Assembly (NCBI RefSeq): GCF_051622035.1
Contig: NC_135360.1
Location: 9,166,001-9,230,000, forward strand
Source of the DNA: Arctopsyche grandis
Lineage: Eukaryota; Arthropoda; Insecta; Trichoptera; Hydropsychidae
Direction: 5' to 3'
DNA: 64,000 bases
Position numbers and translations under genes: made by a program. The notes beneath the pieces were generated by a model. It searched no databases. It was given only the letters and a program-made list of their open reading frames with translations, and was not told where the DNA came from. Positions 6,433 to 64,000 of the stretch are shown here, piece by piece. Within the stretch, counting starts at the first letter, position 1. Each line of letters begins with the position of its first letter.

Positions 6433-6546
6433 ATAATATATAATATTTTTAATATGTACTTTTTTTTTCGAGAAAATATGGAGAGAGGCACATAAAAATA
6501 TTAAACGCAAAAGGGGCCACGGTCCAAAAAAGGTTCAGAAACGCTG

Positions 6547-7990: not shown

Positions 7991-8140
7991 TAGGGTTGCC
8001 AACATATTCATTTTGACCCGGAAACTCCGGGTTCGGCGGTCGATCTCCGGACTCGGGGTTTACAAACAAAATCTCCGGGTCAGTGGTCAATATCTGTCAT
8101 TCGTGGTGGGAATAATAATTAATATATAAAAAATGTAAAG

Positions 8141-32380: not shown

Positions 32381-32494
<114 letters not shown>

Positions 32495-32560
32495 TTATAT
32501 TAATTTAATACACAATAAATGATATTTGTATTATAACATAACACCGAAAAAGTTTTGTAT

Positions 32561-33203: not shown

Positions 33204-33418
33204 ATTTGTTTTTTTTAATAAATTGACTCTCACGAACAAACAAACATATACAATACTCTTACGAAATTATATGTATAACAGAATCCGAAGAGAAATTGGG
33301 TAGGGCTTCGCCCAAGGGGACTTCGAATACTTTGAATCGAAAAATAAATCGAATCAGCGCCTTTGAATCGAAAAATAATAAAAAGTTGAAAATAAAAATG
33401 AAAATGTTGTTTCCACCT

Positions 33419-34535: not shown

Positions 34536-35514
34536 GGGTTGGGTTAGGTTTGGTGAAATTAGCACGTTTTGTGTATACTTTTGCAATTTCGAATTCTTTG
34601 ATTTCGGTGTTGGTTAGGTTAGGATGGGTTAGGTATGGTGAGGTTAGCGAGTTTTGTGAATAACTAACAATCTCGAATTATTTGATTTCGGTGATGGTTA
34701 GGTTAGGATGGGTTAGGTTTGGTGAGGTAAGCACGTTTTGTGTATATTTTTGCAATGTTGAATTCTTTGATTTTGGTGTTGGTTAGGTTAGGTTGGGTTA
34801 GGTTTGGTGAGCTTAGCACGTTTTGTGTATATTTTTGCAATGTTGAATTCTTTGATTTTGGTGTTGGTAAGGTTGGGTTGGGTTAGGTTTGGTGAGGTAA
34901 GCACGTTTTGTGTATATTCTTGCAATGTCGAATTCTTTGATTTTGGTGTTGTTAAGGTTTGGTTGGGTTGGGTTTGGTGATGTAAGGGCGTTTTGTGTAT
35001 ATTTTTGCAATGTCGAATTTTTTAATTTCGGTGTTGCTTGTGTTAGGTTAGGTTGGGTTAGGTTTAGTGAGGTTAGCACGTTTTGTGTATTTTTTTGCAA
35101 TGTTGAATTCTTTGATTTCGGTGTTGTTTAGGTTAGGTTGGCTTAGGTTCGGTGAGGTTAGCACGTTTTGTGTATATTTTTGCAATGTCGAATTCTTTGA
35201 TTTCGGTCATGGTTAGGTTGGGTTGGGTTAGGTTTCGTGCGGTAAGCGAGTTTAGTGTCTAACTTACAATCTCGAATTATTTGATTTTGGTGATGGTAAG
35301 GTTAGGTTGGGTCTATTTTGATGAAGTAAGCGAGTTTTGTGAATAACTTACAATCTCGAATTCTTTGATTTCGGTGATGGTTAGGTTAGGTTGGGTTAGG
35401 TTTGGTGAGCTTAGCACGTTTTGTGTATATTTTTGCAATATTGATTTCTTTGATTTCGGTGTTGGTAAGGTTAGGTTGGGTTAGGTTTTGTGAGGTAAGC
35501 GCGTTTTGTGTATA

Positions 35515-37190
35515 TTTTTGCAATGTCGAATTCTTTGATTTCGGTGATGGTTATGTTAGGTTGGGTTAGGTTTGGTGAGGTAAGCGAGTTTTGTGAATAA
35601 CTTACAATCTCGAATTCTTTGATTTCGGTGATGGCTAGGTTAGGTTGGGTTAGGTTTGGTGAGGTAAGCGCGTTTTGGGTATATTTTTGCAATGTCGAAT
35701 TCTTTAATTTCGGTGTTGCTTGTGTTAGGTTGGGTTACGTTTGGTGAGGTTAGCGAGTTTTGTGAATAACTTACAATCTGGAATTCTTTGATTTCGGTGA
35801 TCGTTAGGTTAGGTTGGGTTAGGTTTGATGAGGTAAGCACGTTTTTTGTATATTTTTGCAATGTTGAATTCTTTGATTTTGGTGTTGGTTAGGTTTGGTG
35901 AGGTTAGCACGTTTTGTGTATATTTTTGCAATGTTGAATTCTTTGATTTCGGTGTTGTTTAGGTTAGGTTGGCTTAGGTTCGGTGAGGTTAGCACGTTTT
36001 GTGTATATTTTTGCAATGTCGAATTTATTGATTTCGGTCATGGTTAGGTTGGGTTGGGTTAGGTTTCGTGCGGTAAGCGAGTTTTGTGTCTAACTTACAA
36101 TCTCGAATTATTTGACTTTGGTGATGGTAAGGTTAGGTTGGGTCTATTTTGATGAGGTAAGCGAGTTTTGTGAAAATCTTACAATCTCGAATTCTTTAAT
36201 TTCGGTGATGGTTAGGTTAGGTTGGGTTAGGTTTGGTGAGGTTAGCACGTTTTTTGTATATTTTTGCATGGCGATTTCTTTGATTTCGGTGTTGTTTGGG
36301 TTAGTTTGGGTTAGGTATGGTGAGCATAGCACGTTTTGTGTATATTCTTGCAATGTCGAATTCTTTGATTTCGGTGATGGTTATGTTAGGTTGGGTTAGG
36401 TTTGGTGAGGTAAGCGAGTTTTGTGAATAACTTACAATCTCGAACTCTTTGATTTCGGTGATGGCTAGGTTAGGTTGGGTTAGGTTTGGTGAGGTAAGCG
36501 CGTTTTGGGTATATTTTTGCAATGTCGAATTCTTTAATTTCGGTGTTGCTTGTGTTAGGTTGGGTAACGTTTGGTGAGGTTAGCGAGTTTTGTGAATAAC
36601 TTACAATCTGGAATTCTTTGATTTCGGTGATCGTTAGGTTAGGTTGGGTTAGGTTTGATGAGGTAAGCACGTTTTTTGTATATTTTTGCAATGTTGAATT
36701 CTTTGATTTTGGTGTTGGTTAGGTTTGGTGAGGTTAGCACGTTTTGTGTATATTTTTGCAATGTTGAATTCTTTGATTTCGGTGTTGTTTAGGTTAGGTT
36801 GGCTTAGGTTCGGTGAGGTTAGCACGTTTTGTGTATATTTTTGCAATGTCGAATTTATTGATTTCGGTCATGGTTAGGTTGGGTTGGGTTAGGTTTCGTG
36901 CGGTAAGCGAGTTTTGTGTCTAACTTACAATCTCGAATTATTTGACTTTGGTGATGGTAAGGTTAGGTTGGGTCTATTTTGATGAGGTAAGCGAGTTTTG
37001 TGAAAATCTTACAATCTCGAATTCTTTAATTTCGGTGATGGTTAGGTTAGGTTGGGTTAGGTTTGGTGAGGTTAGCACGTTTTTTGTATATTTTTGCATG
37101 GCGATTTCTTTGATTTCGGTGTTGTTTGGGTTAGTTTGGGTTAGGTATGGTGAGCATAGCACGTTTTGTGTATATTCTTGCAATGTCGAA
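35515..37190 (+). repeat. 830-bp tandem higher-order block, two copies
   Basis: Within the satellite, about 35515-36344 is repeated as 36345 to about 37190 at a spacing of 830 bases (about ten monomers). Diagnostic irregular monomers recur at exactly this spacing: the TTTTGCATGGCGATTTCTTT monomer and the GGGTCTATTTTGATGAGG monomer. Few substitutions separate the copies. Confidence 0.8.
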
Positions 37191-37371
37191 TTCTTCGATT
37201 TCGGTGATGGTAATGTTAGGTTGGGTTAGGTTTGGTGAGGTAAGCGAGTTTTGTGAATAACTTACAATCTCGAATTCTTTGATTTCGGTGATGGTTAGGT
37301 TAGGTTGGGTTAGGTTTGGTGAGCTTAGCACGTTTTGTGTATATTTTTGCAATATTGATTTCTTTGATTTC

Positions 37372-39681
37372 GGTGTTGGTAAGGTTAGGTTGGGTTAGGT
37401 TTTGTGAGGTAAGCGCGTTTTGTGTATATTTTTGCAATGTCGAATTCTTTGATTTCGGTGATGGTTATGTTAGGTTGGGTTAGGTTTGGTGAGGTAAGCG
37501 AGTTTTGTGAATAACTTACAATCTCGAATTCTTTGATTTCGGTGATGGCTAGGTTAGGTTGGTTTAGGTTTGGTGAGGTAAGCGCGTTTTGTGTATATTT
37601 TTGCGATGTTGAATTCTTTGATTTTGGTGTTGGTAAGGTAAGGTTGGGTTAGGTTTGGTGAGCTTAGCACGTTTTGTGTATATTTTTGCAATGTTGAATT
37701 CTTTGATTTTGGTGTTGGTTAGGTTGGGTTGGGTTAGGTTTGGTGAGGTAAGCACGTTTTGTGTATATTCTTTGCAATGTCGAATTCTTTGATTTCGGTG
37801 ATGGTAATGTTAGGTTGGGTTAGGTTTGGTGAGGTAAGCGAGTTTTGTGAATAATTAAGAATCTCGAATTCTTTGATTTCGGTGATGGTTAGGTTAGGTT
37901 GGGTTAGGTTTGGTGAGCTTAGCACGTTTTGTGTATATTTTTGCAATGTTAAATTCTTTGATTTTGGTGTTGTTAAGGTTTGGTTGGGTTGGGTTTGGTG
38001 AGGTAAGGGCGTTTTGTGTATATTTTTGCAATGTCGAATTTTTTGATTTCGGTGTTGCTTGGGTTAGGTTGGGTTAGGTTTGGTGAGCTAAGCACGTTTT
38101 GTGTATATTTTTGCAATGTTGAATTCTTCGATTTTGGTGTTGGTTAGGTTAGGTTGGGTTAGGTTTGGTGAGATAAGCGAGTTTTGTGAATAACTTACAA
38201 TCTCGAATTCTTTGATTTCGGTGATGGCTAGGTTAGGTTGGTTTAGGTTTGGTGAGGTAAGCGCGTTTTGTGTATATTTTTGCGATGTTGAATTCTTTGA
38301 TTTTGGTGTTGCTTGTGTTAGGTTGGGTTACGTTTGGTGAGGTTAGCGAGTTTTGTGAATAACTTACAATCTGGAATTCTTTGATTTCGGTGATCGTTAG
38401 GTTAGGTTGGGTTAGGTTTGATGAGGTAAGCACGTTTTTTGTATATTTTTGCAATGTTGAATTCTTTGATTTTGGTGTTGGTTAGGTTCGGTGAGGTTAG
38501 CACGTTTTGTGTATATTTTTGCAATGTCGAATTTATTGATTTCGGTCATGGTTAGGTTGGGTTGGGTTAGGTTTCGTGCGGTAAGCGAGTTTTGTGTCTA
38601 ACTTACAATCTCGAATTATTTGATTTTGGTGATGGTAAGGTTAGGTTGGGTCTATTTTGATGAAGTAAGCGAGTTTTGTGTAAATTTTACAATCTCGAAT
38701 TCATTGATTTCGGTGATGGTTAGGTTAGGTTGGGTTAAGTATGGTGAGGTTAGCATCTTTTGTGTATATTTTTGAAAAGTCGAATTCTTTGATTTTGGTG
38801 TTGGTTAGGTTAGGTTGGGTTAGGTTTGTTGAGCTTAGCACGTTTTGTGTATATTTTTGCAATGTTGAATTCTTTGATTTCGGTGTTGGTAAGGTTAGGT
38901 TGGGTTAGGTTTTGTGAGGTAAGCGCGTTTTGTGTATATTTTTGCAATGTCGAATTCTTTGATTTCGGTGATGGTTATGTTAGGTTGGGTTAGGTTTGGT
39001 GAGATAAGCGAGTTTTGTGAATAACTTACAATCTCGAATTCTTTGATTTCGGTGATGGCTAGGTTAGGTTGGTTTAGGTTTGGTGAGGTAAGCGCGTTTT
39101 GTGTATATTTTTGCGATGTTGAATTCTTTGATTTTGGTGTTGGTAAGGTAAGGTTGGGTTAGGTTTGGTGAGCTTAGCACGTTTTGTGTATATTTTTGCA
39201 ATGTTGAATTCTTTGATTTTGGTGTTGGTTAGGTTGGGTTGGGTTAGGTTTGGTGAGGTAAGCACGTTTTGTGTATATTCTTTGCAATGTCGAATTCTTT
39301 GATTTCGGTGATGGTAATGTTAGGTTGGGTTAGGTTTGGTGAGGTAAGCGAGTTTTGTGAATAATTAAGAATCTCGAATTCTTTGATTTCGGTGATGGTT
39401 AGGTTAGGTTGGGTTAGGTTTGGTGAGCTTAGCACGTTTTGTGTATATTTTTGCAATGTTAAATTCTTTGATTTTGGTGTTGTTAAGGTTTGGTTGGGTT
39501 GGGTTTGGTGAGGTAAGGGCGTTTTGTGTATATTTTTGCAATGTCGAATTTTTTGATTTCGGTGTTGCTTGGGTTAGGTTGGGTTAGGTTTGGTGAGCTA
39601 AGCATGTTTTGTGTATATTTTTGCAATGTTGAATTCTTCGATTTTGGTGTTGGTTAGGTTAGGTTGGGTTAGGTTTGGTGA
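37372..39681 (+). repeat. 1510-bp spaced duplication inside the satellite
   Basis: About 800 bases (37372-38171) recur at 38882-39681. An adjacent part (from about 38233) recurs with a spacing of 1681 bases (from about 39914), so a two-monomer insertion (171 bases) separates the two registers. Shared markers include TGTATATTCTTTGCAATG and AATAATTAAGAATCTCG. Confidence 0.7.
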
Positions 39682-42600
39682 GCTTAGCACGTTTTGTGTA
39701 TATTTTTGCAATATTGATTTCTTTGATTTCGGTGTTGGTAAGGTTAGGTTGGGTTAGGTTTTGTGAGGTAAGCGCGTTTTGTGTATATTTTTGCAATGTC
39801 GAATTCTTTGATTTCGGTGATGGTTATGTTAGGTTGGGTTAGGTTTGGTGAGGTAAGCGAGTTTTGTGTATATTCTTGCAATCTCGAATTCTTTGATTTC
39901 GGTGATGGCTAGGTTAGGTTGGGTTAGGTTTGGTGAGGTAAGCGCGTTTTGGGTATATTTTTGCAATGTCGAATTCTTTAATTTCGGTGTTGCTTGTGTT
40001 AGGTTGGGTTACGTTTGGTGAGGTTAGCGAGTTTTGTGAATAACTTACAATCTGGAATTCTTTGATTTCGGTGATCGTTAGGTTAGGTTGGGTTAGGTTT
40101 GATGAGGTAAGCACGTTTTTTGTATATTTTTGCAATGTTGAATTCTTTGATTTTGGTGTTGGTTAGGTTCGGTGAGGTTAGCACGTTTTGTGTATATTTT
40201 TGCAATGTCGAATTTATTGATTTCGGTCATGGTTAGGTTGGGTTGGGTTAGGTTTCGTGCGGTAAGCGAGTTTTGTGTCTAACTTACAATCTCGAATTAT
40301 TTGATTTTGGTGATGGTAAGGTTAGGTTGGGTCTATTTTGATGAAGTAAGCGAGTTTTGTGTAAATTTTAAAATCTCGAATTCATTGATTTCGGTGATGG
40401 TTAGGTTAGGTTGGGTTAAGTATGGTGAGGTTAGCATCTTTTGTGTATATTTTTGAAAAGTCGAATTCTTTGATTTTGGTGTTGGTTAGGTTAGGTTGGG
40501 TTAGGTTTGTTGAGCTTAGCACGTTTTGTGTATATTTTTGCAATGTTGAATTCTTTGATTTCGGTGTTGTTTAGGTTAGGTTGGCTTAGGTTCGGTGAGG
40601 TTAGCACGTTTTGTGTATATTTTTGCAATGTCGAATTCTTTGATTTCGGTCATGGTTAGGTTGGGTTGGGTTAGGTTTCGTGCGGTTAGCGAGTTTTTTG
40701 TCTAACTTACAATCTCGAATTATTTGACTTTGGTGATGGTAAGGTTAGGTTGGGTCTATTTTGATGAGGTAAGCGAGTTTTGTGAAAATCTTACAATCTC
40801 GAATTCTTTAATTTCGGTGATGGTTAGGTTAGGTTGGGTTAGGTTTGGTGAGGTTAGCACGTTTTGTGTATATTTTTGCAATGTTGAATTATTTGATTTC
40901 GGTGTTGTTTAGGTTAGGTTGGCTTAGGTTCGGTGAGGTTAGCACGTTTTGTGTATATTTTTGCAATGTCGAATTTATTGATTTCGGTCATGGTTAGGTT
41001 GGGTTGGGTTAGGTTTCGTGCGGTAAGCGAGTTTTGTGTCTAACTTACAATCTCGAATTATTTGACTTTGGTGATGGTAAGGTTAGGTTGGGTCTATTTT
41101 GATGAGGTAAGCGAGTTTTGTGAAAATCTTACAATCTCGAATTCTTTAATTTCGGTGATGGTTAGGTTAGGTTGGGTTAGGTTTGGTGAGGTTAGCACGT
41201 TTTTTGTATATTTTTGCATGGCGATTTCTTTGATTTCGGTGTTGTTTGGGTTAGTTTGGGTTAGGTATGGTGAGCATAGCACGTTTTGTGTATATTCTTG
41301 CAATGTCTAATTCTTCGATTTCGGTGATGGTAATGTTAGGTTGGGTTAGGTTTGGTGAGGTAAGCGAGTTTTGTGAATAACTTACAATCTCGAATTCTTT
41401 GATTTCGGTGATGGTTAGGTTAGGTTGGGTTAGGTTTGGTGAGCTTAGCACGTTTTGTGTATATTTTTGCAATATTGATTTCTTTGATTTCGGTGTTGGT
41501 AAGGTTAGGTTGGGTTAGGTTTTGTGAGGTAAGCGCGTTTTGTGTATATTTTTGCAATGTCGAATTCTTTGATTTCGGTGATGGTTATGTTAGGTTGGGT
41601 TAGGTTTGGTGAGGTAAGCGAGTTTTGTGAATAACTTACAATCTCGAATTCTTTGATTTCGGTGATGGCTAGGTTAGGTTGGTTTAGGTTTGGTGAGGTA
41701 AGCGCGTTTTGTGTATATTTTTGCAATGTCGAATTCTTTAATTTCGGTGTTGCTTGTGTTAGGTTTGGTTACGTTTGGTGAGGTTAGCGAGTTTTGTGAA
41801 TAACTTACAATCTGGAATTCTTTGATTTCGGTGATCGTTAGGTTAGGTTGGGTTAGGTTTGGTGAGGTAAGCACGTTTTTTGTATATTTTTGCAATGTTG
41901 AATTCTTTGATTTTGGTGTTGGTTAGGTTTGGTGAGGTTAGCACGTTTTGTGTATATTTTTGCAATGTTAAAATCTTTGATTTCGGTGTTGTTTAGGTTA
42001 GGTTGGCTTAGGTTCGGTGAGGTTAGCACGTTTTGTGTATATTTTTGCAATGTCGAATTTATTGATTTCGGTCATGGTTAGGTTGGGTTGGGTTAGGTTT
42101 CGTGCGGTAAGCGAGTTTTGTGTCTAACTTACAATCTCGAATTATTTGATTTTGGTGATGGTAAGGTTAGGTTGGGTTAGGTTTGGTGAGGTTAGCACGT
42201 TTTTTGTATATTTTTGCATGGCGATTTCTTTGATTTAGAATCATATTGATTGTGAATAATTTAGAATCTCAAATTCTTTGATTTCGGTGATGGTTAGGTT
42301 AGGTTGGGTTAGGTTTGGTGAGCTTAGCACGTTTTGTGTATATTTTTGCAATGTGGAATTCTTTGATTTTGGTGTTGTTAAGGTTTGGTTGGGTTGGGTT
42401 TGGTGAGGTGAGCGCGTTTTGTGTATATTTTTGCAATGTTGAATTCTTTGATTTTGGTGTTGGTTAGGTTGGGTTGGGTTAGGTTTGGTGAGGTAAGCCC
42501 GTTTTGTGTATATTCTTGCAATGTCGAATTCTTTGATTTCGGTGATGGTAATGTAAGGTTGGATTAGGTTTGGTGAGGTAAGCGAGTTTTGAGAAAAACT

Positions 42601-45600
42601 AACAATCTGGAATTCTTTGATTTCGGTGATGGTTAGGTTAGGTTGGGTTTGGTTTGGTGAGGTTAGCGAGTTTTGTGAATAACTAACAATCTGAAATTCT
42701 TTAAAATTTCGGTGATGGTTAGGTTTTTTGATTTCGGTGATTTCGGTGATTCTTTGATTTCGGTGATGGTAATGTTAGGTTGGGTTGGGTTTGGTGAGGT
42801 AAGCGAGTTTTGTGAATAATTAAGAATCTCGAATTCTTTGATTTCGGTGATGGTTAGGTTAGGTTGGGTTAGGTTTGGTGAGCTTAGCACGTTTTGTGTA
42901 TATTTTTGCAATGTTAAATTCTTTGATTTTGGTGTTGTTAAGGTTTGGTTGGGTTGGGTTTGGTGAGGTAAGGGCGTTTTGTGTATATTTTTGCAATGTC
43001 GAATTTTTTGATTTCGGTGTTGCTTGGGTTAGGTTGGGTTAGGTTTGGTGAGCTAAGCACGTTTTGTGTATATTTTTGCAATGTTGAATTCTTCGATTTT
43101 GGTGTTGGTTAGGTTAGGTTGGGTTAGGTTTGGTGAGCTTAGCACGTTTTGTGTATATTTTTGCAAAATTGATTTCTTTGATCTCGGTGTTGGTAAGGTT
43201 AGGTTGGGTTAGGTTTTGTGAGGTAAGCGCGTTTTGTGTATATTTTTGCAATGTCGAATTCTTTGATTTCGGTGATGGCTAGGTTAGGTTGGGTTAGGTT
43301 TGGTGAGGTAAGCGCGTTTTGGGTATATTTTTGCAATGTCGAATTCTTTAATTTCGGTGTTGCTTGTGTTAGGTTGGGTTACGTTTGGTGAGGTTAGCGA
43401 GTTTTGTGAATAACTTACAATCTGGAATTCTTTGATTTCGGTGATCGTTAGGTTAGGTTGGGTTAGGTTTGATGAGGTAAGCACGTTTTTTGTATATTTT
43501 TGCAATGTTGAATTCTTTGATTTTGGTGTTGGTTAGGTTCGGTGAGGTTAGCACGTTTTGTGTATATTTTTGCAATGTCGAATTTTTTGATTTCGGTGTT
43601 GCTTGGGTTAGGTTGGGTTAGGTTTGGTGAGCTAAGCACGTTTTGTGTATATTTTTGCAATGTTGAATTCTTTGATTTCGGTGATCGTTAGGTTAGGTTG
43701 GGTTAGGTTTGGTGAGGTAAGCACGTTTTTTGTATATTTTTGCAATGTTGAATTCTTTGATTTTGGTGTTGGTTAGGTTTGGTGAGGTTAGCACGTTTTG
43801 TGTATATTTTTGCAATGTTGAATTTTTTGATTTCGGTGTTGCTTGGGTTAGGTTGGGTTAGGTTTGGTGAGCTTAGCACGTTTTGTGTATATTTTTGCAA
43901 TGTTGAATTCTTTGATTTTGGTGTTGGTTAGGTTGGGTTGGGTTAGGTTTGGTGAGGTAAGCGCGTTTTGTGTATATTTTTGCAATGTCGAATTTTTTGA
44001 TTTCGGTGTTGCTTGGGATAGGTTGGGTTAGGTTTGGTGAGCTTAGCACGTTTTGTGTATATTTTTGCAATGTTGAATTCTTTGATTTTGGTGTTGGTTA
44101 GGTTGGGTTGGGTTAGGTTTGGTGAGGTAAGCGCGTTTTGTGTATATTTTTGCAATGTCGAATTCTTTAATTTCGGTGTTGCTTGTGTTAGGTTGGGTTA
44201 GGTTTGGTGAGGTTAGCGAGTTTTGTGAATAACTAACAATCTGAAATTCTTTAAAATTTCGGTGATGGTTAGGTTTCTTGATTTCGGTGATTTCGGTGAT
44301 TCTTTGATTTCGGTGATGGTAATGTTAGGTTGGGTTAGGTTTGGTGAGGTAAGCGAGTTTTGTGAATAATTAAGAATCTCGAATTCTTTGATTTCGGTGA
44401 TCGTTAGGTTAGGTTGGGTTAGGTTTGGTGAGCTTAGCACGTTTTGTGTATATTTTTGCAATGTTGAATTCTTTGATTTTGGTGTTGGTTAGGTTGGGTT
44501 GGGTTAGGTTTGGTGAGGTAAGCGCGTTTTGTGTATATTTTTGCAATGTTGAATTCTTTGATTTTGGTGTTGGTTAGGTTAGGTTGGGTTAGGTTTGGTG
44601 AGCTTAGCACGTTTTGTGTATATTTTTGCAATGTTGAATTCTTTGATTTTGGTGTTGGTTAGGTTGGGTTGGGTTACGTTTGGTGAGGTTAGCGAGTTTT
44701 GTGAATAACTTACAATCTGGAATTCTTTGATTTCGGTGATCGTTAGGTTAGGTTGGGTTAGGTTTGGTGAGGTAAGCACGTTTTTTGTATATTTTTGCAA
44801 TGTTGAATTCTTTGATTTTGGTGTTGGTTAGGTTTGGTGTGGTTAGCACGTTTTGTGTATATTTTTGCAATGTTGAATTCTTTGATTTCGGTGTTGTTAA
44901 GGTTAGGTTGGCTTAGGTTCGGTGAGGTTAGCACGTTTTGTGTATATTTTTGCAATGTTGAATTTTTTGATTTCGGTGTTGCTTGGGTTAGGTTGGGTTA
45001 GGTTTGGTGAGCTTAGCACGTTATGTGTATATTTTTGCAATGTTGAATTCTTTGATTTTGGTGTTGGTTAGGTTGGGTTGGGTTAGGTTTGGTGAGGTAA
45101 GCGCGTTTTGTGTATATTTTTGCAATGTCGAATTTTTTGATTTCGGTGTTGCTTGGGATAGGTTGGGTTAGGTTTGGTGAGCTTAGCACGTTTTGTGTAT
45201 ATTTTTGCAATGTTGAATTCTTTGATTTTGGTGTTGGTTAGGTTGTGTTGGGTTAGGTTTGGTGAGGTAAGCGCGTTTTGTGTATATTTTTGCAATGTCG
45301 AATTCTTTAATTTCGGTGTTGCTTGTGTTAGGTTGGGTTAGGTTTGGTGAGGTTAGCGAATTTTGTGAATAACTAACAATCTGAAATTCTTTAAAATTTC
45401 GGTGATGGTTAGGTTTCTTGATTTCGGTGATTTCGGTGATTCTTTGATTTCGGTGATGGTAATGTTAGGTTGGGTTAGGTTTGGTGAGGTAAGCGAGTTT
45501 TGTGAATAATTAAGAATCTCGAATTCTTTGATTTCGGTGATCGTTAGGTTAGGTTGGGTTAGGTTTGGTGAGCTTAGCACGTTTTGTGTATATTTTTGCA

Positions 45601-46792
45601 ATGTTGAATTCTTTGATTTTGGTGTTGGTTAGGTTAGGTTGGGTTAGGTTTGGTGAGCTTAGCACGTTTTGTGTATATTTTTGCAATGTTGAATTCTTTG
45701 ATTTTGGTGTTGGTTAGGTTGGGTTGGGTTACGTTTGGTGAGGTTAGCGAGTTTTGTGAATAACTAACAATCTGGAATTCTTTGATTTCGGTGATCGTTA
45801 GGTTAGGTTGGGTTAGGTTTGGTGAGGTAAGCACGTTTTTTGTATATTTTTGCAATGTTGAATTCTTTGATTTTGGTGTTGGTTAGGTTTGGTGAGGTTA
45901 GCACGTTTTGTGTATATTTTTGCAATGTTGAATTCTTTGATTTCGGTGTTGTTTAGGTTAGGTTGGCTTAGGTTCGGTGAGGTTAGCACGTTTTGTGTTA
46001 ATTTTTGCAATGTCGAATTTATTGATTTCGGTCATGGTTAGGTTGGGTTGGGTTAGGTTTCGTGCGGTAAGCGAGTTTTGTGTCTAACTTACAATCTCGA
46101 ATTATTTGATTTTGGTGATGGTAAGGTTAGGTTGGGTCTATTTTGATGAAGTAAGCGAGTTTTGTGTAAATCTTACAATCTCGAATTCATTGATTTCGGT
46201 GATGGTTAGGTTAGGTTGGGTTAAGTATGGTGAGGTTAGCATCTTTTGTGTATATTTTTGAAAAGTCGAATTCTTTGATTTTGGTGTTGGTTAGGTTAGG
46301 TTGGGTTAGGTTTGTTGAGCTTAGCACGTTTTGTGTATATTTTTGCAATGTTGAATTCTTTGATTTCGGTGTTGTTTAGGTTAGGTTGGCTTAGGTTCGG
46401 TGAGGTTAGCACGTTTTGTGTATATTTTTGCAATGTCGAATTCTTTGATTTCGGTCATGGTTAGGTTGGGTTGGGTTAGGTTTCGTGCGGTTAGCGAGTT
46501 TTTTGTCTAACTTACAATCTCGAATTATTTGACTTTGGTGATGGTAAGGTTAGGTTGGGTCTATTTTGATGAGGTAAGCGAGTTTTGTGAAAATCTTACA
46601 ATCTCGAATTCTTTAATTTCGGTGATGGTTAGGTTAGGTTGGGTTAGGTTTGGTGAGGTTAGCACGTTTTTTGTATATTTTTGCATGGCGATTTCTTTGA
46701 TTTCGGTGTTGTTTGGGTTAGTTTGGGTAAGGTATGGTGAGCATAGCACGTTTTGTGTATATTCTTGCAATGTCGAATTCTTCGATTTCGGT
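39649..46792 (+). repeat. 7144-bp higher-order repeat, unit A
   Basis: About 84 monomers form a unit that is repeated immediately to the right at 46793-53936. Every irregular monomer in unit A has a counterpart exactly 7144 bases further on. Examples are GAATCATATTGATTGTGAAT at about 42238 and 49382, and the GATTTCGGTGATTTCGGTGA disruptions. Only a handful of base differences were noticed by eye, for example one at 45024/52168 and one at about 42552/49696. Confidence 0.9.
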
Positions 46793-52700: not shown

Positions 52701-53936
52701 GGTTAGGTTTGGTGAGCTTAGCACGTTTTGTGTATATTTTTGCAATGTTGAATTCTTTGATTTTGGTGTTGGTTAGGTTAGGTTGGGTTAGGTTTGGTGA
52801 GCTTAGCACGTTTTGTGTATATTTTTGCAATGTTGAATTCTTTGATTTTGGTGTTGGTTAGGTTGGGTTGGGTTACGTTTGGTGAGGTTAGCGAGTTTTG
52901 TGAATAACTAACAATCTGGAATTCTTTGATTTCGGTGATCGTTAGGTTAGGTTGGGTTAGGTTTGGTGAGGTAAGCACGTTTTTTGTATATTTTTGCAAT
53001 GTTGAATTCTTTGATTTTGGTGTTGGTTAGGTTTGGTGAGGTTAGCACGTTTTGTGTATATTTTTGCAATGTTGAATTCTTTGATTTCGGTGTTGTTTAG
53101 GTTAGGTTGGCTTAGGTTCGGTGAGGTTAGCACGTTTTGTGTTAATTTTTGCAATGTCGAATTTATTGATTTCGGTCATGGTTAGGTTGGGTTGGGTTAG
53201 GTTTCGTGCGGTAAGCGAGTTTTGTGTCTAACTTACAATCTCGAATTATTTGATTTTGGTGATGGTAAGGTTAGGTTGGGTCTATTTTGATGAAGTAAGC
53301 GAGTTTTGTGTAAATCTTACAATCTCGAATTCATTGATTTCGGTGATGGTTAGGTTAGGTTGGGTTAAGTATGGTGAGGTTAGCATCTTTTGTGTATATT
53401 TTTGAAAAGTCGAATTCTTTGATTTTGGTGTTGGTTAGGTTAGGTTGGGTTAGGTTTGTTGAGCTTAGCACGTTTTGTGTATATTTTTGCAATGTTGAAT
53501 TCTTTGATTTCGGTGTTGTTTAGGTTAGGTTGGCTTAGGTTCGGTGAGGTTAGCACGTTTTGTGTATATTTTTGCAATGTCGAATTCTTTGATTTCGGTC
53601 ATGGTTAGGTTGGGTTGGGTTAGGTTTCGTGCGGTTAGCGAGTTTTTTGTCTAACTTACAATCTCGAATTATTTGACTTTGGTGATGGTAAGGTTAGGTT
53701 GGGTCTATTTTGATGAGGTAAGCGAGTTTTGTGAAAATCTTACAATCTCGAATTCTTTAATTTCGGTGATGGTTAGGTTAGGTTGGGTTAGGTTTGGTGA
53801 GGTTAGCACGTTTTTTGTATATTTTTGCATGGCGATTTCTTTGATTTCGGTGTTGTTTGGGTTAGTTTGGGTAAGGTATGGTGAGCATAGCACGTTTTGT
53901 GTATATTCTTGCAATGTCGAATTCTTCGATTTCGGT
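46793..53936 (+). repeat. 7144-bp higher-order repeat, unit B
   Basis: This is the tandem partner of 39649-46792 with the same monomer order throughout. At its right end the match to the start of unit A stops and the sequence jumps to the register of unit position about 1677, where the partial third copy begins. Confidence 0.9.
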
Positions 53937-56900
53937 GATGGTAATGTTAGGTTGGGTTAGGTTTGGTGAGGTAAGCGAGTTTTGTGAATAACTAACAATC
54001 TCGAATTCTTTGATTTCGGTGATGGTTAGGTTAGGTTGGGTTAGGTTTAATGAGCTTAGCACGTTTTGTGTATATTTTTGCAATATTGATTTCTTTGATT
54101 TCGGTGTTGGTAAGGTTAGGTTGGGTTAGGTTTTGTGAGGTAAGCGCGTTTTGTGTATATTTTTGCAATGTCGAATTCTTTGATTTCGGTGATGGTTATG
54201 TTAGGTTGGGTTAGGTTTGGTGAGGTAAGCGAGTTTTGTGAATAACTTACAATCTCGAATTCTTTGATTTCGGTGATGGCTAGGTTAGGTTGGTTTAGGT
54301 TTGGTGAGGTAAGCGCGTTTTGTGTATATTTTTGCAATGTCGAATTCTTTAATTTCGGTGTTGCTTGTGTTAGGTTTGGTTACGTTTGGTGAGGTTAGCG
54401 AGTTTTGTGAATAACTTACAATCTGGAATTCTTTGATTTCGGTGATCGTTAGGTTAGGTTGGGTTAGGTTTGGTGAGGTAAGCACGTTTTTTGTATATTT
54501 TTGCAATGTTGAATTCTATGATTTTGGTGTTGGTTAGGTTTGGTGAGGTTAGCACGTTTTGTGTATATTTTTGCAATGTTAAAATCTTTGATTTCGGTGT
54601 TGTTTAGGTTAGGTTGGCTTAGGTTCGGTGAGGTTAGCACGTTTTGTGTATATTTTTGCAATGTCGAATTTATTGATTTCGGTCATGGTTAGGTTGGGTT
54701 GGGTTAGGTTTCGTGTGGTAAGCGAGTTTTGTGTCTAACTTACAATCTCGAATTATTTGATTTTGGTGATGGTAAGGTTAGGTTGGGTTAGGTTTGGTGA
54801 GGTTAGCACGTTTTTTGTATATTTTTGCATGGCGATTTCTTTGATTTAGAATCATATTGATTGTGAATAATTTAGAATCTCAAATTCTTTGATTTCGGTG
54901 ATGGTTAGGTTAGGTTGGGTTAGGTTTGGTGAGCTTAGCACGTTTTGTGTATATTTTTGCAATGTGGAATTCTTTGATTTTGGTGTTGTTAAGGTTTGGT
55001 TGGGTTGGGTTTGGTGAGGTGAGCGCGTTTTGTGTATATTTTTGCAATGTTGAATTTTTTGATTTTGGTGTTGGTTAGGTTGGGTTGGGTTAGGTTTGGT
55101 GAGGTAAGCCCGTTTTGTGTATATTCTTGCAATGTCGAATTCTTTGATTTCGGTGATGGTAATGTTAGGTTGGATTAGGTTTGGTGAGGTAAGCGAGTTT
55201 TGAGAAAAACTAACAATCTAGAATTCTTTGATTTCGGTGATGGTTAGGTTAGGTTGGGTTAGGTTTGGTGAGGTTAGCGAGTTTTGTGAATAACTAACAA
55301 TCTGAAATTCTTTAAAATTTCGGTGATGGATAGGTTTCTTGATTTCGGTGATTTCGGTGATGGTAATGTTAGGTTGGGTTGGGTTTGGTGAGGTAAGCGA
55401 GTTTTGTGAATAATTAAGAATCTCGAATTCTTTGATTTCGGTGATGGTTAGGTTAGGTTGGGTTAGGTTTGGTGAGCTTAGCACGTTTTGTGTATATTTT
55501 TGCAATGTTAAATTCTTTGATTTTGGTGTTGTTAAGGTTTGGTTGGGTTGGGTTTGGTGAGGTAAGGGCGTTTTGTGTATATTTTTGCAATGTCGAATTT
55601 TTTGATTTCGGTGTTGCTTGGGTTAGTTTGGGTTAGGTTTGGTGAGCTAAGCACGTTTTGTGTATATTTTTGCAATGTTGAATTCTTCGATTTTGGTGTT
55701 GGTTAGGTTAGGTTGGGTTAGGTTTGGTGAGCTTAGCACGTTTTGTGTATATTTTTGCAAAATTGATTTCTTTGATCTCGGTGTTGGTAAGGTTAGGTTG
55801 GGTTAGGTTTTGTGAGGTAAGCGCGTTTTGTGTATATTTTTGCAATGTCGAATTCTTTGATTTCGGTGATGGTTATGTTAGGTTGGGTTAGGTTTGGTGA
55901 GGTAAGCGAGTTTTGTGTATATTCTTGCAATCTCGAATTCTTTGATTTCGGTGATGGCTAGGTTAGGTTGGGTTAGGTTTGGTGAGGTAAGCGCGTTTTG
56001 GGTATATTTTTGCAATGTCGAATTCTTTAATTTCGGTGTTGCTTGTGTTAGGTTGGGTTACGTTTGGTGAGGTTAGCGAGTTTTGTGAATAACTTACAAT
56101 CTGGAATTCTTTGATTTCGGTGATCGTTAGGTTAGGTTGGGTTAGGTTTGATGAGGTAAGCACGTTTTTTGTATATTTTTGCAATGTTGAATTCTTTGAT
56201 TTTGGTGTTGGTTAGGTTCGGTGAGGTTAGCACGTTTTGTGTATATTTTTGCAATGTCGAATTTTTTGATTTCGGTGTTGCTTGGGTTAGGTTGGTTTAG
56301 GTTTGGTGAGCTAAGCACGTTTTGTGTATATTTTTGCAATGTTGAATTCTTTGATTTCGGTGATCGTTAGGTTAGGTTGGGTTAGGTTTGGTGAGGTAAG
56401 CACGTTTTTTGTATATTTTTGCAATGTTGAATTCTTTGATTTTGGTGTTGGTTAGGTTTGGTGAGGTTAGCACGTTTTGTGTATATTTTTGCAATGTTGA
56501 ATTTTTTGATTTCGGTGTTGCTTGGGTTAGGTTGGGTTAGGTTTGGTGAGCTTAGCACGTTTTGTGTATATTTTTGCAATGTTGAATTCTTTGATTTTGG
56601 TGTTGGTTAGGTTGGGTTGGGTTAGGTTTGGTGAGGTAAGCGCGTTTTGTGTATATTTTTGCAATGTCGAATTCTTTAATTTCGGTGTTGCTTGTGTAAG
56701 GTTGGGTTAGGTTTGGTGAGGTTAGCGAGTTTTGTGAATAACTAACAATCTGAAATTCTTTAAAATTTCGGTGATGGTTAGGTTTCTTGATTTCGGTGAT
56801 TTCAGTGATTCTTTGATTTCGGTGATGGTAATGTTAGGTTGGGTTAGGTTTGGTGAGGTAAGCGAGTTTTGTGAATAATTAAGAATCTCGAATTCTTTGA

Positions 56901-59114
56901 TTTCGGTGATCGTTAGGTTAGGTTGGGTTAGGTTTGGTGAGCTTAGCACGTTTTGTGTATATTTTTGCAATGTTGAATTCTTTGATTTTGGTGTTGGTTA
57001 GGTTGGGTTGGGTTAGGTTTGGTGAGGTAAGCGCGTTTTGTGTATATTTTTGCAATGTCAAATTTTTTGATTTCGGTGTTGCTTGGGTTAGGTTGGGTTA
57101 GGTTTGGTGAGCTAAGCACGTTTTGTGTTTATTTTTGCAATGTTGAATTCTTTGATTTTGGTGTTGGTTAGGTTGGGTTGGGTTACGTTTGGTGAGGTTA
57201 GCGAGTTTTGTGAATAACTTACAATCTGGAATTCTTTGATTTCGGTGATCGTTAGGTTAGGTTGGGTTAGGTTTGGTGAGGTAAGCACGTTTTTTGTATA
57301 TTTTTGCAATGTTGAATTCTTTGATTTTGGTGTTGGTTAGGTTTGGTGTGGTTAGCACGTTTTGTGTATATTTTTGCAATGTTGAATTCTTTGATTTCGG
57401 TGTTGTTAAGGTTAGGTTGGCTTAGGTTCGGTGAGGTTAGCACGTTTTGTGTATATTTTTGCAATGTCGAATTCTTTAATTTCGGTGTTGCTTGTGTTAG
57501 GTTGGGTTACGTTTGGTGAGATTAGCGAGTTTTGTGAATAACTTACAATCTGGAATTCTTTGATTTCGGTGATCGTTAGGTTAGGTTGGGTTAGGTTTGG
57601 TGAGGTAAGCACGTTTTTTGTATATTTTTGCAATGTTGAATTCTTTGATTTTGGTGTTGGTTAGGTTTGGTGAGGTTACCACGTTTTGTGTATATTTTTG
57701 CAATGTTGAATTCTTTGATTTCGGTGTTGGTTAGGTTGGGTTGGGTTAGGTTTGGTGAGGTAAGCGCGTTTTGTGTATATTTTTGCAATGTCGAATTCTT
57801 TAATTTCAGTGTTGCTTGTGTTAGGTTGGGTTACGTTTGGTGAGGTTAGCGAGTTTTGTGAATAACTTACAATCTGGAATTCTTTGATTTCGGTGATCGT
57901 TAGGTTAGGTTGGGTTAGGTTTGGTGAGGTAAGCACGTTTTTTGTATATTTTTGCAATGTTGAATTCTTTGATTTCGGTGTTGTTTAGGTGAGGTTGGCT
58001 TAGGTTCGGTGAGGTTAGCACGTTTTGTGTATATTTTTGCAATGTCGAATTTTTTGATTTCGGTGTTGCTTGGGTTAGGTTGGGTTAGGTTTGGTGAGCT
58101 AAGCACGTTTTGTGTATATTTTTGAAATGTTGAATTCTTTGATTTTGGTGTTGGTTAGGTTAGGTTGGGTTAGGTTTGGTGAGCTTAGCACGTTTTGTGT
58201 ATATTTTTGCAATGTTGAATTCTTTGATTTTGGTGTTGGTTAGGTTGGGTTGGGTTACGTTTGGTGAGGTTAGCGAGTTTTGTGAATAACTTACAATCTG
58301 GAATTCTTTGATTTCGGTGATCGTTAGGTTAGGTTGGGTTAGGTTTGGTGAGGTAAGCACGTTTTTTGTATATTTTTGCAATGTTGAATTCTTTGATTTT
58401 GGTGTTGGTTAGGTTTGGTGAGGTTAGCACGTTTTGTGTATATTTTTGCAATGTTGAATTCTTTGATTTCGGTGTTGTTAAGGTTAGGTTGGCTTAGGTT
58501 CGGTGAGGTTAGCACGTTTTGTGTATATTTTTGCAATGTCGAATTCTTTAATTTCGGTGTTGCTTGTGTTAGGTTGGGTTACGTTTGGTGAGGTTAGCGA
58601 GTTTTGTGAATAACTTACAATCTGGAATTCTTTGATTTCGGTGATCGTTAGGTTAGGTTGGGTTAGGTTTGGTGAGGTAAGCACATTTTTTGTATATTTT
58701 TGCAATGTTGAATTCTTTGATTTTGGTGTTGGTTAGGTTTGGTGAGGTTACCACGTTTTGTGTATATTTTTGCAATGTTGAATTCTTTGATTTCGGTGTT
58801 GGTTAGGTTGGGTTGGGTTAGGTTTGGTGAGCTTAGCACGTTTTGTGTATATTTTTGCAATAATGATTTCTTTGATTTTGGTGTTGGTTAGGTTGGGTTG
58901 GGTTAGGTTTGGTGAGGTAAGCACGTTTTGTGTATATTCTTGCAATGTCGAATTCTTTGATTTCGGTGATGGTAATGTTAGGTTGGGTTAGGTTTGGTGA
59001 GGTAAGCGAGTTTTGTGAATAATTAAGAATCTCGAATTCTTTGATTTCGGTGATGGTTAGGTTAGGTTGGGTTAGGTTTGGTGAGCTTAGCACGTTTTGT
59101 GTATATTTTTGCAA
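53937..59114 (+). repeat. Partial, decayed third copy of the higher-order unit
   Basis: From 53937 the sequence follows unit B shifted by 5467 bases. The shift changes to 5535 after a 17-bp loss and an 85-bp (one monomer) gain. Further on, by about 56720, it drops by 170 bases (two monomers), and correspondence then becomes patchy. This is the pattern expected of unequal exchange. Confidence 0.65.
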
Positions 59115-61134
59115 TGTTAAATTCTTTGATTTTGGTGTTGGTTAGGTTGGGTTGGGTTAGGTTTGGTGAGGTAAGCACGTTTTGTGTATATTTTTGCAAT
59201 GTTGAATTCTTTGATTTCGGTGTTGTTTAGGTTAGGTTGGCTTAGGTTCGGTGAGGTTAGCACGTTTTGTGTATATTTTTGCAATGTCGAATTCTTTGAT
59301 TTCGGTCATGGTTAGGTTGGGTTGGGTTAGGTTTCGTGCGGTTAGTAAGTTTTTTGTCTAACTTACAATTTTGAATTATTTGATTTTGGTGATGGTAAGG
59401 TTAGGTTGGGTCTATTTTGATGAGGTAAGCGAGTTTTGTGAAAATCTTACAATCTCGAATTCTTTAATTTCGGTGATGGTTAGGTTAGGTTGGGTTAGGT
59501 TTGGTGAGGTAAGCACGTTTTTTGTATATTTTTGCATGGCGATTTCTTTGATTTCGGTGTTGTTTGGGTTAGTTTGGGTTAGGTATGGTGAGCTTAGCAC
59601 GTTTTGTGTATATTCTTGCAATGTCGAATTCTTTGATTTCGGTGATGGTAAGGTTAGGTTGGGTATGGTTTGGTGAGTTTAGCACGTTGTGTGTATATTT
59701 TTGCAATGTTGAATTCTTTGATTTTGGTGTTGGTTAGGTTTGGTTAGGTAAGGTTTGGTGAGGTCAGCACGTTTTGTGTATATTTTTTAAATGTCGAATT
59801 CTTTGATTTCGGTGTTGGTTAGGCTAGGTTGGGTTAGGTTTGGTGTGGTTAGCGAGTTTTGTGTAAATCTTACAATTTGGAATTCTTTGATTTTGGTGTT
59901 GGTTAGGTTGGGTTGGGTTAGGTTTGGTGGGGTTAGTACGTTTTGTGTATATTTTTGCAATGTCAAATTCTTTGATTTCGGTGTTGGTAAGGTTAGGTTG
60001 GGTTAGGTTTGGTGAGGTTACCACGTTTTGTGTATATTCTTGCAATGTCGAATTCTTTGATTTCGGTGATGGTAATGTTAGGTTGGGTTAAGTTTGGTGA
60101 GTTAAGCGAGTTTTGTGAATAATTTAGAATCTCAAATTCTTTGATTTCGGTGATGGTTAGGTTAGGTTGGGTTAGGTTTGGTGAGCTTAGCACGTTTTGT
60201 GTATATTTTTGCAATGTGGAATTCTTTGATTTTGGTGTTGTTAAGGTTTGGTTAAGTTGGGTTTGGTGAGGTGAGCGCGTTTTGTGTATATTTTTGCAAT
60301 GTCGAATTCTTTGATTTCGGTGTTGCTTGGGTTAGGTTGGGTTAGGTTTGGTGAGCTAGGCACGTTTTTTGTATATTTTTGCAATGTTAAATTCATTGAT
60401 TTTGGTGTTGGTTAGGTTAGGTTGGGTTAGGTTTGGTGAGGTAAGCGCGTTTTGTGAATATTTTTGCAATGTCGAATTCTTTGATTTTGGTGTTTGTTAG
60501 GTTAGGTTGGGTTTGGTTTGGTGAGATTAGCACGTTTTGTGTATATTCTTGCAATGTCGGATTCTTTGATTTCGGTGATGGTTATGTTAGGTTGGGTTAG
60601 ATTTGGTGAGGTAAGCGAGTTTTGTGAATATATAAGAATCTCGAATTTTTTGATTTCGGTGATGGTTAGGTTAGGTTGGGTTAGGTTTGGTGAGCTTAGC
60701 ACGTTTTGTGTATATTTTTGCAATGTTGAATTCTTTGATTTTGGTGTTGTTAAGGTTTGGTTGGGTTGGGTTTGGTGAGGTAAGGGCGTTTTGTTTATAT
60801 TTTTGCAATGTCGAATTTTTTGATTTCGGTGTTGCTTGGGTTAGGTTGGGTTAGGTTTGGTGAGCTAAGCACGTTTTGTGTATATTTTTGCAATGTTGAA
60901 TTCTTTGATTTTGGTGTTGGTTAGGTTAGGTTGGGTTAGGTTTGGTGAGCGTAGCACGTTTTGTGTATATTTTTGCAATGTTGAATTCTTTGATTTTGGT
61001 GTTGGTTTGGTTGGGTTGGGTTAGGTTTGGTGAGGTAAGCGCGTTTTGTGTATATTTTTGCAATGTCGAATTCTTTAATTTCGGTGTTGCTTGTGTTAGG
61101 TTGGGTTACGTTTGGTGAGGTTAGCGAGTTTTGT

Positions 61135-62910
61135 GAATAACTTACAATCTGGAATTCTTTGATTTCGGTGATCGTTAGGTTAGGTTGGGTTAGGTTTGGT
61201 GAGGTAAGCACGTTTTTTGTATATTTTTGCAATGTAGAATTCTTTGATTTTGGTGTTGGTTAGGTTTGGTGAGGTTAGCACGTTTTGTGTATTTTTTTGC
61301 AATGTTGAATTCTTTGATTTTGGTGTTGGTTAGGTTAGGTTGGGTTAGGTTTGGTGAGCTTAGCACGTTTTGTGTATATTTTTGCAATGTTGAATCCTTT
61401 GATTTTGGTGTTGGTTAGGTTGGGTTGGGTTAGGTTTGGTGAGGTAAGCACGTTTTGTGTATATTTTTGCAATGTTGAATTCTTTGATTTTGGTGTTGGT
61501 TAGGTTGGGTTGGGTTAGGTTTGGTGAGGTAAGCACGTTTTGTGTATATTCTTGCAATGTCGAATTCTTTGATTTTGGTGATGGTAATGTTAGGTTGGGT
61601 TAGGTTTGGTGAGGTAAGCGAGTTTTGTGAATAATAAAGAATCTCGAATTCTTTGATTTCGGTGATGGTTAGGTTAGGTTGGGTTAGGTTTGGTGAGCTT
61701 AGCACGTTTTGTGTATATTTTTGCAATGTTAAATTCTTTGATTTTGGTGTTGTTAAGGTTTGGTTGGGTTGGGTTTGGTGAGGTAAGGGCGTATTGTGTA
61801 TATTTTTGCAATGTCGAATTTTTTGATTTCGGTGTTGCTTGGGTTGGGTTGGGTTAGGTTTGGTGAGCTTAGCACGTTTTGTGTATATTTTTGCAATGTT
61901 GAATTCTTTGATTTTGGTGTTGGTTAGGTTGGGTTGGGTAAGGTTTGGTGAGGTAAGCGCGTTTTGTGTATATTTTTGCAATGTCGAATTCTTTAATTTC
62001 GGTGTTGCTTGTGTTAGGTTGGGTTACGTTTGGTGAGGTTAGCGAGTTTTGTGAATAACTTACAATCTGGAATTCTTTGATTTCGGTGATCGCTAGGTTA
62101 GGTTGGGTTATGTTTGGTGAGGTAAGCACGTTTTTTGTATATTTTTGCAATGTTGAATTCTTTGATTTTGGTGTTGGTTAGGTTTGGTGAGGTTAGCACG
62201 TTTTGTGTATATTTTTGCAATGTTGAATTCTTTGATTTCGGTGTTGGTTAGGTTGGGTTGGGTTAGGTTTGGTGAGGTAAGCACGTTTTGTGTATATTTT
62301 TGCAATGTTGAATTCTTTGATTTTGGTGTTGGTTTGGTTGGGTTGGGTTAGGTTTGGTGAGGTAAGCGCGTTTTGTGAATAACTTACAATCTGGAATTCT
62401 TTGATTTCGGTGATCGTTAGGTTAGGTTGGGTTAGGTTTGGTGAGGTAAGCACGTTTTTTGTATATTTTTGCAATGTAGAATTCTTTGATTTTGGTGTTG
62501 GTTAGGTTTGGTGAGGTTAGCACGTTTTGTGTATTTTTTTGCAATGTTGAATTCTTTGATTTTGGTGTTGGTTAGGTTAGGTTGGGTTAGGTTTGGTGAG
62601 CTTAGCACGTTTTGTGTATATTTTTGCAATGTTGAATCCTTTGATTTTGGTGTTGGTTAGGTTGGGTTGGGTTAGGTTTGGTGAGGTAAGCACGTTTTGT
62701 GTATATTTTTGCAATGTTGAATTCTTTGATTTTGGTGTTGGTTAGGTTGGGTTGGGTTAGGTTTGGTGAGGTAAGCACGTTTTGTGTATATTCTTGCAAT
62801 GTCGAATTCTTTGATTTTGGTGATGGTAATGTTAGGTTGGGTTAGGTTTGGTGAGGTAAGCGAGTTTTGTGAATAATAAAGAATCTCGAATTCTTTGATT
62901 TCGGTGATGG
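61135..62910 (+). repeat. 1242-bp spaced duplication near the right edge of the satellite
   Basis: 61135-61668 corresponds to 62377-62910 at a constant spacing of 1242 bases, including shared oddities such as GTGTATTTTTTTGCAATG, GAATCCTTTG and AATAATAAAGAATCTCG. The match ends exactly where the perfect TTAGG run begins at 62911. Confidence 0.75.
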
Positions 62911-62950
62911 TTAGGTTAGGTTAGGTTAGGTTAGGTTAGGTTAGGTTAGG
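62911..62950 (+). repeat. Perfect (TTAGG)8 run inside a satellite monomer
   Basis: Eight exact TTAGG units replace the usual TTAGGTTAGGTTGGGTTAGG of the monomer, making it 20 bases (four pentamers) longer. TTAGG is the canonical telomere repeat of most insects outside Diptera. The paralogous monomer at 61669 has the ordinary form, so the change is recent. Confidence 0.95.
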
Positions 62951-64000
62951 TTTGGTGAGGTAAGCACGTTTTTTGTATATTTTTGCAATGTTGAATTCTT
63001 TGATTTTGGTGTTGGTTAGGTTAGGTTGGTTTAGGTTTGGTGAGCTTAGCACGTTTTGTGTATATTTTTGCAATGTTGAATCCTTTGATTTTGGTGTTGG
63101 TTAGGTTGGGTTGGGTTAGGTTTGGTGAGGTAAGCACGTTTTGTGTATATTCTTGCAATGTCGAATTCTTTGATTTTGGTGATGGTAATGTTAGGTTGGG
63201 TTAGGTTTGGTGAGGTAAGCGAGTTTTGTGAATAATTAAGAATCTCGAATTCTTTGATTTCGGTGATGGTTAGGTTAGGTTGGGTTAGGTTTGGTGAGCT
63301 TAGCACGTTTTGTGTATATTTTTGCAATGTTAAATTCTTTGATATTGGTGTTGTTAAGGTTTGGTTGGGTTGGGTTTGGTGAGGTAAGGGCGTTTTGTGT
63401 ATATTTTTGCAATGTCCAATTTTTTGATTTCGGTGTTGCTTGGGTTGGGTTGGGTTAGGTTTGGTGAGCTTAGCACGTTTTGTGTATATTTTTGCAATGT
63501 TGAATTCTTTGATTTTGGTGTTGGTTAGGTTGAGTTGGGTTAGGTTTGGTGAGGTAAGCGCGTTTTGTGTATATTTTTGCAATGTCGAATTCTTTAATTT
63601 CGGTGTTGCTTGTGTTAGGTTGGGTTACGTTTGGTGAGGTTAGCGAGTTTTGTGAATAACTTACAATCTGGAATTCTTTGATTTCGGTGATCGCTAGGTT
63701 AGGTTGGGTTAGGTTTGGTGAGGTAAGCACGTTTTTTGTATATTTTTGCAATGTTGAATTCTTTGATTTTGGTGTTGGTTAGGTTTGGTGAGGTTAGCAC
63801 GTTTTGTGTATATTTTTGCAATGTTGAATTCTTTGATTTCGGTGTTGTTTAGGTTAGGTTGGCTTAGGTTCCGTGAGGTTAGCACGTTTTGTGTATATTT
63901 TTGCAATGTCGAATTTTTTGATTTCGGTGTTGTTTGGGTTAGTTTGGGTTAGGTATGGTGAGCTTAGCACGTTTTGTGTATATTCTTGCAATGTCGAATT

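Follow-up and report, generated by a model that had tools for sequence, protein, structure and literature searches.

We analysed a 64,000-nucleotide stretch of DNA from the trichopteran insect Arctopsyche grandis, referred to here as the window, which corresponds to positions 9,166,001 to 9,230,000 on the forward strand of contig NC_135360.1 (C6:9166001-9230000; C6 is 34.75 Mb long). The assembly, GCF_051622035.1, comprises 475.7 Mb in 189 contigs, 13 of which are large (29.5-42.7 Mb each, 451.6 Mb in sum) and are presumed to be chromosomes. The right part of the window, from position 34537 to 64000, is filled by an array of an 85-bp satellite with its G-rich strand on the plus strand, and the array runs on beyond the window, uninterrupted by N, to C6:9300491, making up ~100 kb when inserted elements are counted. 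This array is part of a very abundant subtelomeric satellite family, which appears to be the main satellite of the genome. Each unit contains a short block of telomere-like pentamers, and it is within this block that satellite and telomere meet at all chromosome ends that were readable, while the array in the window lies far inside a chromosome and is bordered by the ends of a transposon.

Tandem Repeats Finder describes window positions 34537-64000 as a single array with a period of either 85 (355.7 copies) or 170 (176.3 copies). Monomers are 84-85 bp long; the spacing between anchors is 85 in 186 of 359 cases, 84 in 96 and 70 in 26, with a few other values, and the 70-bp spacing is 15 bp, or three pentamers, short of 85. 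TTAGG occurs 681 times inside the array and CCTAA not once, compared with 16 and 15 occurrences, respectively, in the 34.5 kb on its left. The initial annotation had recorded an array of 84-85 bp monomers, at least 29.5 kb long and all in one orientation, and these counts and the extension past the window bear it out. It had also called the array a megasatellite; the tandem array is real, but for a unit of 85 bp the usual word is satellite.

The monomer, which is strongly G/T-rich on one strand, combines the telomere-like block with about 50-60 bp of ordinary sequence. In the consensus the block reads GGTTA GGTTA GGTTG GGTTA GGTT(T) and scores 23 of 24 against (GGTTA)n; among 1000 dinucleotide-shuffled versions of the monomer none came as close, the best attaining 20. 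The monomer thus holds the telomere repeat of its own species beyond chance, as expected of a telomere-derived satellite, and the block may derive from telomere sequence rather than only resemble it. The pentamers had been noted before as taking up a third of the monomer; they are present, but the good match is confined to 24 nt and extends to 34-35 nt when the weaker pentamers GGTTT GGTGA GGTWA are included (28-41% of the monomer).

The abundance of the family was estimated genome-wide with a 27-base core as probe, allowing up to three mismatches. The two strands contain 180,197 and 187,544 matches to the core, against none for the reversed control, and at 85 bp per match the satellite would amount to ~31 Mb, or 6.6% of the assembly. 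In seven sampled stretches the core detected 0.68-0.93 of the units (267 of ~347 in the window), and correction for this sensitivity gives about 34-46 Mb (7-10% of the assembly). Of the 26 large-contig ends, 22 have the satellite at the end or close to it. Two unplaced contigs, C22 (1.3 Mb) and C23 (2.16 Mb), carry a 170-bp, two-unit form of the satellite at all five interior points sampled, and the orientation of the satellite flips within C23 as well as within the first 100 kb of C8. Among the matches listed there are inland arrays on C1 at 4.44, 10.04, 12.20 and 18.44 Mb, on C6 at 9.2, 12.67, 25.7 and 34.39 Mb, and others on C9, C10 and C13; both orientations occur among them. The array in the window is one of these, placed at C6:9.20-9.30 Mb and thus 9.2 Mb from the left end of the contig. 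A diverged sister satellite, judged by eye, occurs at C10:30258494-30259170; it follows a like plan, with telomere-like pentamers and CACCGGTGCAAAGTATTCACCGATGC, in the orientation opposite to that of the adjoining 85-bp units, and both lie apparently within a broken reverse-transcriptase element.

The species has ordinary insect-type telomeres, because its chromosome ends carry (TTAGG)n and its genome one telomerase gene. (TTAGG)6 has 46,861 overlapping matches in the genome, and 15 of the 26 large-contig ends terminate in pure (TTAGG)n. Telomerase is represented by one PF12009 match (E 1.5e-18) on C8 at 27.11 Mb, in a single frame of 739 amino acids whose best match to solved telomerases has an E of 2.2e-21. 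This frame (piece L153:1132-3351) is uninterrupted, and the coding part of the gene may be intronless. C6 itself bears a telomere and the same satellite at both of its ends. Elsewhere, C1L, C8L, C8R and C11L end within satellite of the usual polarity; at C12L the telomere is followed by 2,500 N and then by satellite; C4L, C7L and C9L start with N; and the final sequence of C2R is (AC)n in the last 300 bases looked at.

Borders between satellite and telomere were read at sixteen ends, namely fourteen ends of large contigs (C1R, C2L, C3L, C3R, C4R, C5L, C6L, C6R, C7R, C9R, C10L, C10R, C12R and C13R) and one on each of the unplaced contigs C18 and C21. At all sixteen the satellite adjoins the telomere with its G-rich strand outward, and direct adjacency to the telomere, by which subtelomeric satellite DNA is recognized, is therefore found for the family at every border read. 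Without exception, the change to telomere falls within the telomere-like block. Thirteen junctions retain the diagnostic pentamer ending in TTG (GGTTG, or AGTTG at C2L and C10L), after which the telomere follows directly, after two extra bases (C5L) or after a few more pentamers (C3R, C7R and C10R); the remaining three, C6L, C12R and C13R, switch to telomere earlier in the block. If the ends are taken as independent, the probability of such clustering against a uniform position along the 85 bp is 1.6e-9 for the 24-nt block and 4.3e-7 for 34 nt.

The joints do not look like recent copies of one joint, because the monomers next to the telomere resemble one another less from end to end than do randomly chosen interior monomers. 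With one anchor rule applied throughout and the anchor itself excluded, the mean identity of the last units across the sixteen ends is 0.806, compared with 0.838 for random interior units from the same ends; all of 300 random draws equalled or exceeded the observed value, as did 297 of 300 for the eleven ends having at least four interior units. When the terminal anchor was chosen by a laxer rule, the values were 0.822 versus 0.846, and a comparison over 170 nt at ten ends found no difference (0.835 versus 0.833). Fifteen distinct block texts are present among the sixteen ends. That one joint was recently copied to all ends is unlikely; an old common joint behind all of them is possible.

These results divide what the initial annotation had proposed. 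It had supposed TTAGG telomeres, naming their absence as a weakness, and a subtelomeric satellite with the G-rich strand running towards the tip; the telomeres are present and the family behaves at its junctions as predicted. It had likewise considered that the array in the window might be subtelomeric, in which case the chromosome end would lie to the right, and this does not hold for an array 9.2 Mb inland on a contig that has telomere and satellite at both ends. The observation that it said would refute a subtelomeric placement, monomers at interior sites of many chromosomes, is thus made for the window array and not for the family.

How the array came to lie inland is indicated by its borders. 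Immediately to its left lies a complete, non-autonomous hAT-like element (window 33418..34536, plus strand), with TAGAGGTTGTGAT as left and ATCACAACCTCTG as right terminal inverted repeat (TIR); the inverted repeats read TAGAGGTTGTGAT...ATCACAACCTCT, and the final base of the right TIR is A in the other copies looked at. The satellite begins immediately past the right end of this element, at about window position 34537. The right 332 bp of the element, called R (window 34204..34535, plus strand), are repeated in direct orientation beyond the array, at C6:9300492-9300824, with 95% identity. The same 8 nt, TTTCCACC, stand just outside both outer TIRs, at window 33410..33417 on the left and, after the final base of the TIR, at C6:9300826-9300833 on the right, beyond the window. 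The whole, C6:9199418-9300825, spans 101.4 kb and has the ends and the target-site duplication of one transposition unit, because its outer TIRs are flanked by the identical TTTCCACC. At least 40 near-full copies of R, including that in the window, occur in the genome at 91-100% identity (the best 40 of 407 candidates), and the element is 91% identical to two solo copies, on C1 and C8, over an alignment of ~1.14 kb. An 8-bp target-site duplication and short TIRs are among the defining features of a miniature inverted-repeat transposable element (MITE) of the hAT superfamily. The duplication is perfect at the composite and at C1 and agrees at six of 8 nt at C8, and both solo copies have short TIRs (TAGAGGTTGTGAT and ATCACAACCTCTA). 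R was also considered as a long terminal repeat (LTR), given the direct orientation of the two flanking copies, and this was rejected on account of the inverted repeats and the 8-nt duplication, which indicate a hAT-like element.

The window array has one sister only, an inverted composite at C6:25.68-25.75 Mb. The junctions from element to satellite and from satellite to R are common to both composites, and each junction pattern (up to three mismatches) occurs exactly twice genome-wide; R as a general carrier of the satellite was rejected for this reason. A comparison of the left outer flanks of the two composites found no match past the inverted repeat. The satellite of the 25.7-Mb array is the closest to that in the window, at up to 92% identity, with other arrays at 87% or less (best 40 of 7122 candidates). 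Because the array is flanked by element ends and an 8-bp duplication, and because its sister shares the inner junctions but not the left flank, the satellite is best regarded as transposon cargo that was later expanded. The plain reading of the sequence would be that some satellite lay between two element copies and was mobilized along with them, and that the arrays subsequently expanded where they had landed.

Taken together, we consider it likely that the block is a site at which satellite and telomere are joined, that separate joinings took place at several ends, and that the window array travelled as transposon cargo. At chromosome ends the satellite runs outward, G-rich strand first, into pure (TTAGG)n, mostly just after the GGTTG mismatch, and the most likely reason is that the block offers a place where the two can be joined. 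Two routes may be envisaged: telomerase could extend a broken or resected end at the block, or a lost end could be recopied from another telomere by recombination through homology to the block. Joining would have happened separately at several ends and not in a single event. The window array, as its ends show, arrived as cargo between a complete and a cut-short copy of the non-autonomous hAT-like transposon, and then probably grew to ~100 kb through unequal exchange. As to what fixes the position of the joint, telomerase, recombination and inheritance are each possible and compatible with the data.

Inheritance deserves the most attention among the rival explanations. A first monomer that spanned an old border between subtelomere and telomere, containing both the unique part and the first telomere repeats, could have been amplified and its terminal unit spread by exchange between ends; a single event would then yield both block and joint, and no repeated joining would be required. 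The retention of the pentamer ending in TTG at 13 of 16 ends, even in the different subfamily at C2L, fits this account, as does the last-unit variant common to C1R and C5L, while the low likeness of the last units relative to random interior ones, the diversity of block texts and the three early switches all speak against it, and we consider it a less likely alternative that should be kept in view. That the likeness to telomere is a coincidence in a satellite with one strongly G/T-rich strand is hardly credible, given the agreement at 23 of 24 positions, the failure of all shuffles to match it and the start of true telomere in the block at every junction read.

Inland arrays could also have been left behind where chromosomes fused end to end or where former ends were inverted, in the manner of fusion-type interstitial telomere sequences, an idea encouraged by the presence of subtelomeric satellite at interior sites of several chromosomes and by the fact that the two large arrays on C6 are oppositely oriented. 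Head-to-head arrays, which mark a fusion, were not found at C6:9.20-9.30 Mb, where all satellite has one orientation; a head-to-head partner, an N gap and a long telomere tract are all missing from the window array, which is bounded on the outside by transposon ends flanked by identical 8-nt sequences. Fusion is thus rejected for the window array on the grounds of its single orientation and its matching transposon borders, and it is improbable for the inland arrays at large. Still less probable is a scaffolding error that placed a true chromosome end inside C6. Satellite assemblies are error-prone and several contig ends consist of N or satellite, but C6:9166001-9310000 is free of N, non-satellite sequence flanks the array on both sides, C6 already bears telomeres at both ends and the transposon borders match across the array, and this explanation was also rejected for the window array.

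Several points weigh against separate joinings at the block and a transposon-borne window array. The ends come from one assembly, whose correctness was judged from the assembled sequence, and may not be independent: C1R and C5L look related (0.918 over 170 nt), as do C18R and C21L, whose block texts are identical. The control for the last-unit comparison has just two to three interior units at five ends. The border was read at 14 of the 26 large-contig ends. C2L belongs to a 170-bp subfamily in which the block is less telomere-like, yet it is joined at the homologous place, which is a better fit to inheritance or exchange than to priming by telomerase. Among the other 12 ends, C5R, C11R and C13L stop within the 170-bp form, whose G-rich strand here points inward, possibly as centromeric or inverted blocks; with this opposite polarity they argue against outward orientation as a simple rule for all of the satellite. 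Within the window array, conservation of the block is not clearly above that of the remainder of the monomer. Finally, at 25.7 Mb R stops at 249 of 332 bp, which hides the second target duplication.

The attachment of telomeres to subtelomeric satellites is rarely visible at many ends of one genome, and the location of all borders read in one short block raises a testable question: do satellites with telomere-like blocks serve as sites of telomere rebuilding? A bolder and more doubtful idea is that the satellite acts as a self-renewing landing strip for telomeres, a new TTAGG telomere being able to start in each 85-bp unit. Were this true, breakage at any point of a long terminal array could be healed at the next unit, and transposon-borne arrays would bring such strips into chromosome interiors, with the potential to give rise to new ends, fissions or fusions. 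Through its target-site duplication, the window array also documents a concrete route for a subtelomeric satellite into the interior of a chromosome, and interior telomere-like arrays therefore need not mean fusion scars.

The array has itself been reshaped by duplication and insertion. In the window, the segment 39601..46828 (plus strand) is duplicated at an offset of 7144 bp with 99.86% identity, a recent large-scale tandem duplication, and at 62909..62961 (plus strand) Tandem Repeats Finder and the TTAGG count identify a local expansion of the pentamer block to ~10.6 pentamers, including a perfect (TTAGG)8 at 62911-62950. To the right of the window, the array is broken by four inserted copies of ~4.2, 4.2, 7.2 and 7.2 kb, representing two elements with two copies each; the pairs fall in later tandem duplications with offsets of 6240 and 15033, in stretches that are 99.86% and 99.91% identical. 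One element is a non-LTR retroelement (C6:9264180-9271411, with a second copy 15,033 bp onward) with zinc knuckle, endonuclease and reverse transcriptase; it is inserted into the satellite's telomere-like block, shows a poly(A) end and a duplication of 12 nt, AGGTTTGGTGAG, and may resemble the telomere-targeting TRAS/SART type. A 772-amino-acid frame with DUF1759, presumably a BEL/Pao-type feature, is found at L015:16-2334 and 6256-8574 (C6), doubled at the 6,240-bp offset, and the insertion site of its element is in the non-telomeric part of the satellite. The left flank of the array contains an exon of a juvenile-hormone-binding-type protein (window 21232-21576, plus strand), a serpin exon (31266-31565, minus strand) and a (TA)58 microsatellite (32384-32500).

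As a kind, the subtelomeric satellite is well known in plants and insects; what seems unusual here is that the joint is fixed at all borders read, and that a composite transposon takes a subtelomeric satellite inland. In the literature searched on satellite-telomere joints and transposon-carried satellites, which covered few subscription papers, neither this satellite nor a fixed joint position in an insect was found. The aphid repeat MpR is reportedly 169 bp long, and its two primers, the sole MpR sequence compared, have at best 6 and 8 mismatches of 18 in the satellite. MpR is akin to it as an insect subtelomeric tandem repeat of similar dimer length from a species with TTAGG telomeres (PMC4296714, citing Spence et al. 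1998). Reviews mention that subtelomeres contain degenerate telomere tracts, which may play a part in healing (PMC5615363, PMC9498494). In potato, the satellites CL14 and CL34 form arrays of up to 1-3 Mb at chromosome ends, and at some ends these long terminal arrays are joined directly to telomere repeats, as in A. grandis; their units, however, measure 182 and 339 bp, and the junction clones contain different incomplete monomers, in contrast with the single block used at 16 of 16 junctions here (PMC3276127). In some clones of Silene latifolia DNA the subtelomeric satellite X43.1 directly abuts the telomere, but this is a plant system in which linkers are also used as joins (PMC9498494). Interstitial telomeric sequences share with the inland arrays the presence of telomere-like repeats at interior sites, whereas here a short telomere-like block is contained in a longer unit and long telomere tracts are lacking (PMC9693754). 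The nearest counterpart to the transposon-borne array is miDNA4 of Xenopus tropicalis, a satellite that is linked to a non-autonomous DNA transposon (a MITE) and has been spread by it; in A. grandis the satellite belongs to a subtelomeric family and lies between a complete and a truncated copy of the element, as a composite (PMC9659126).

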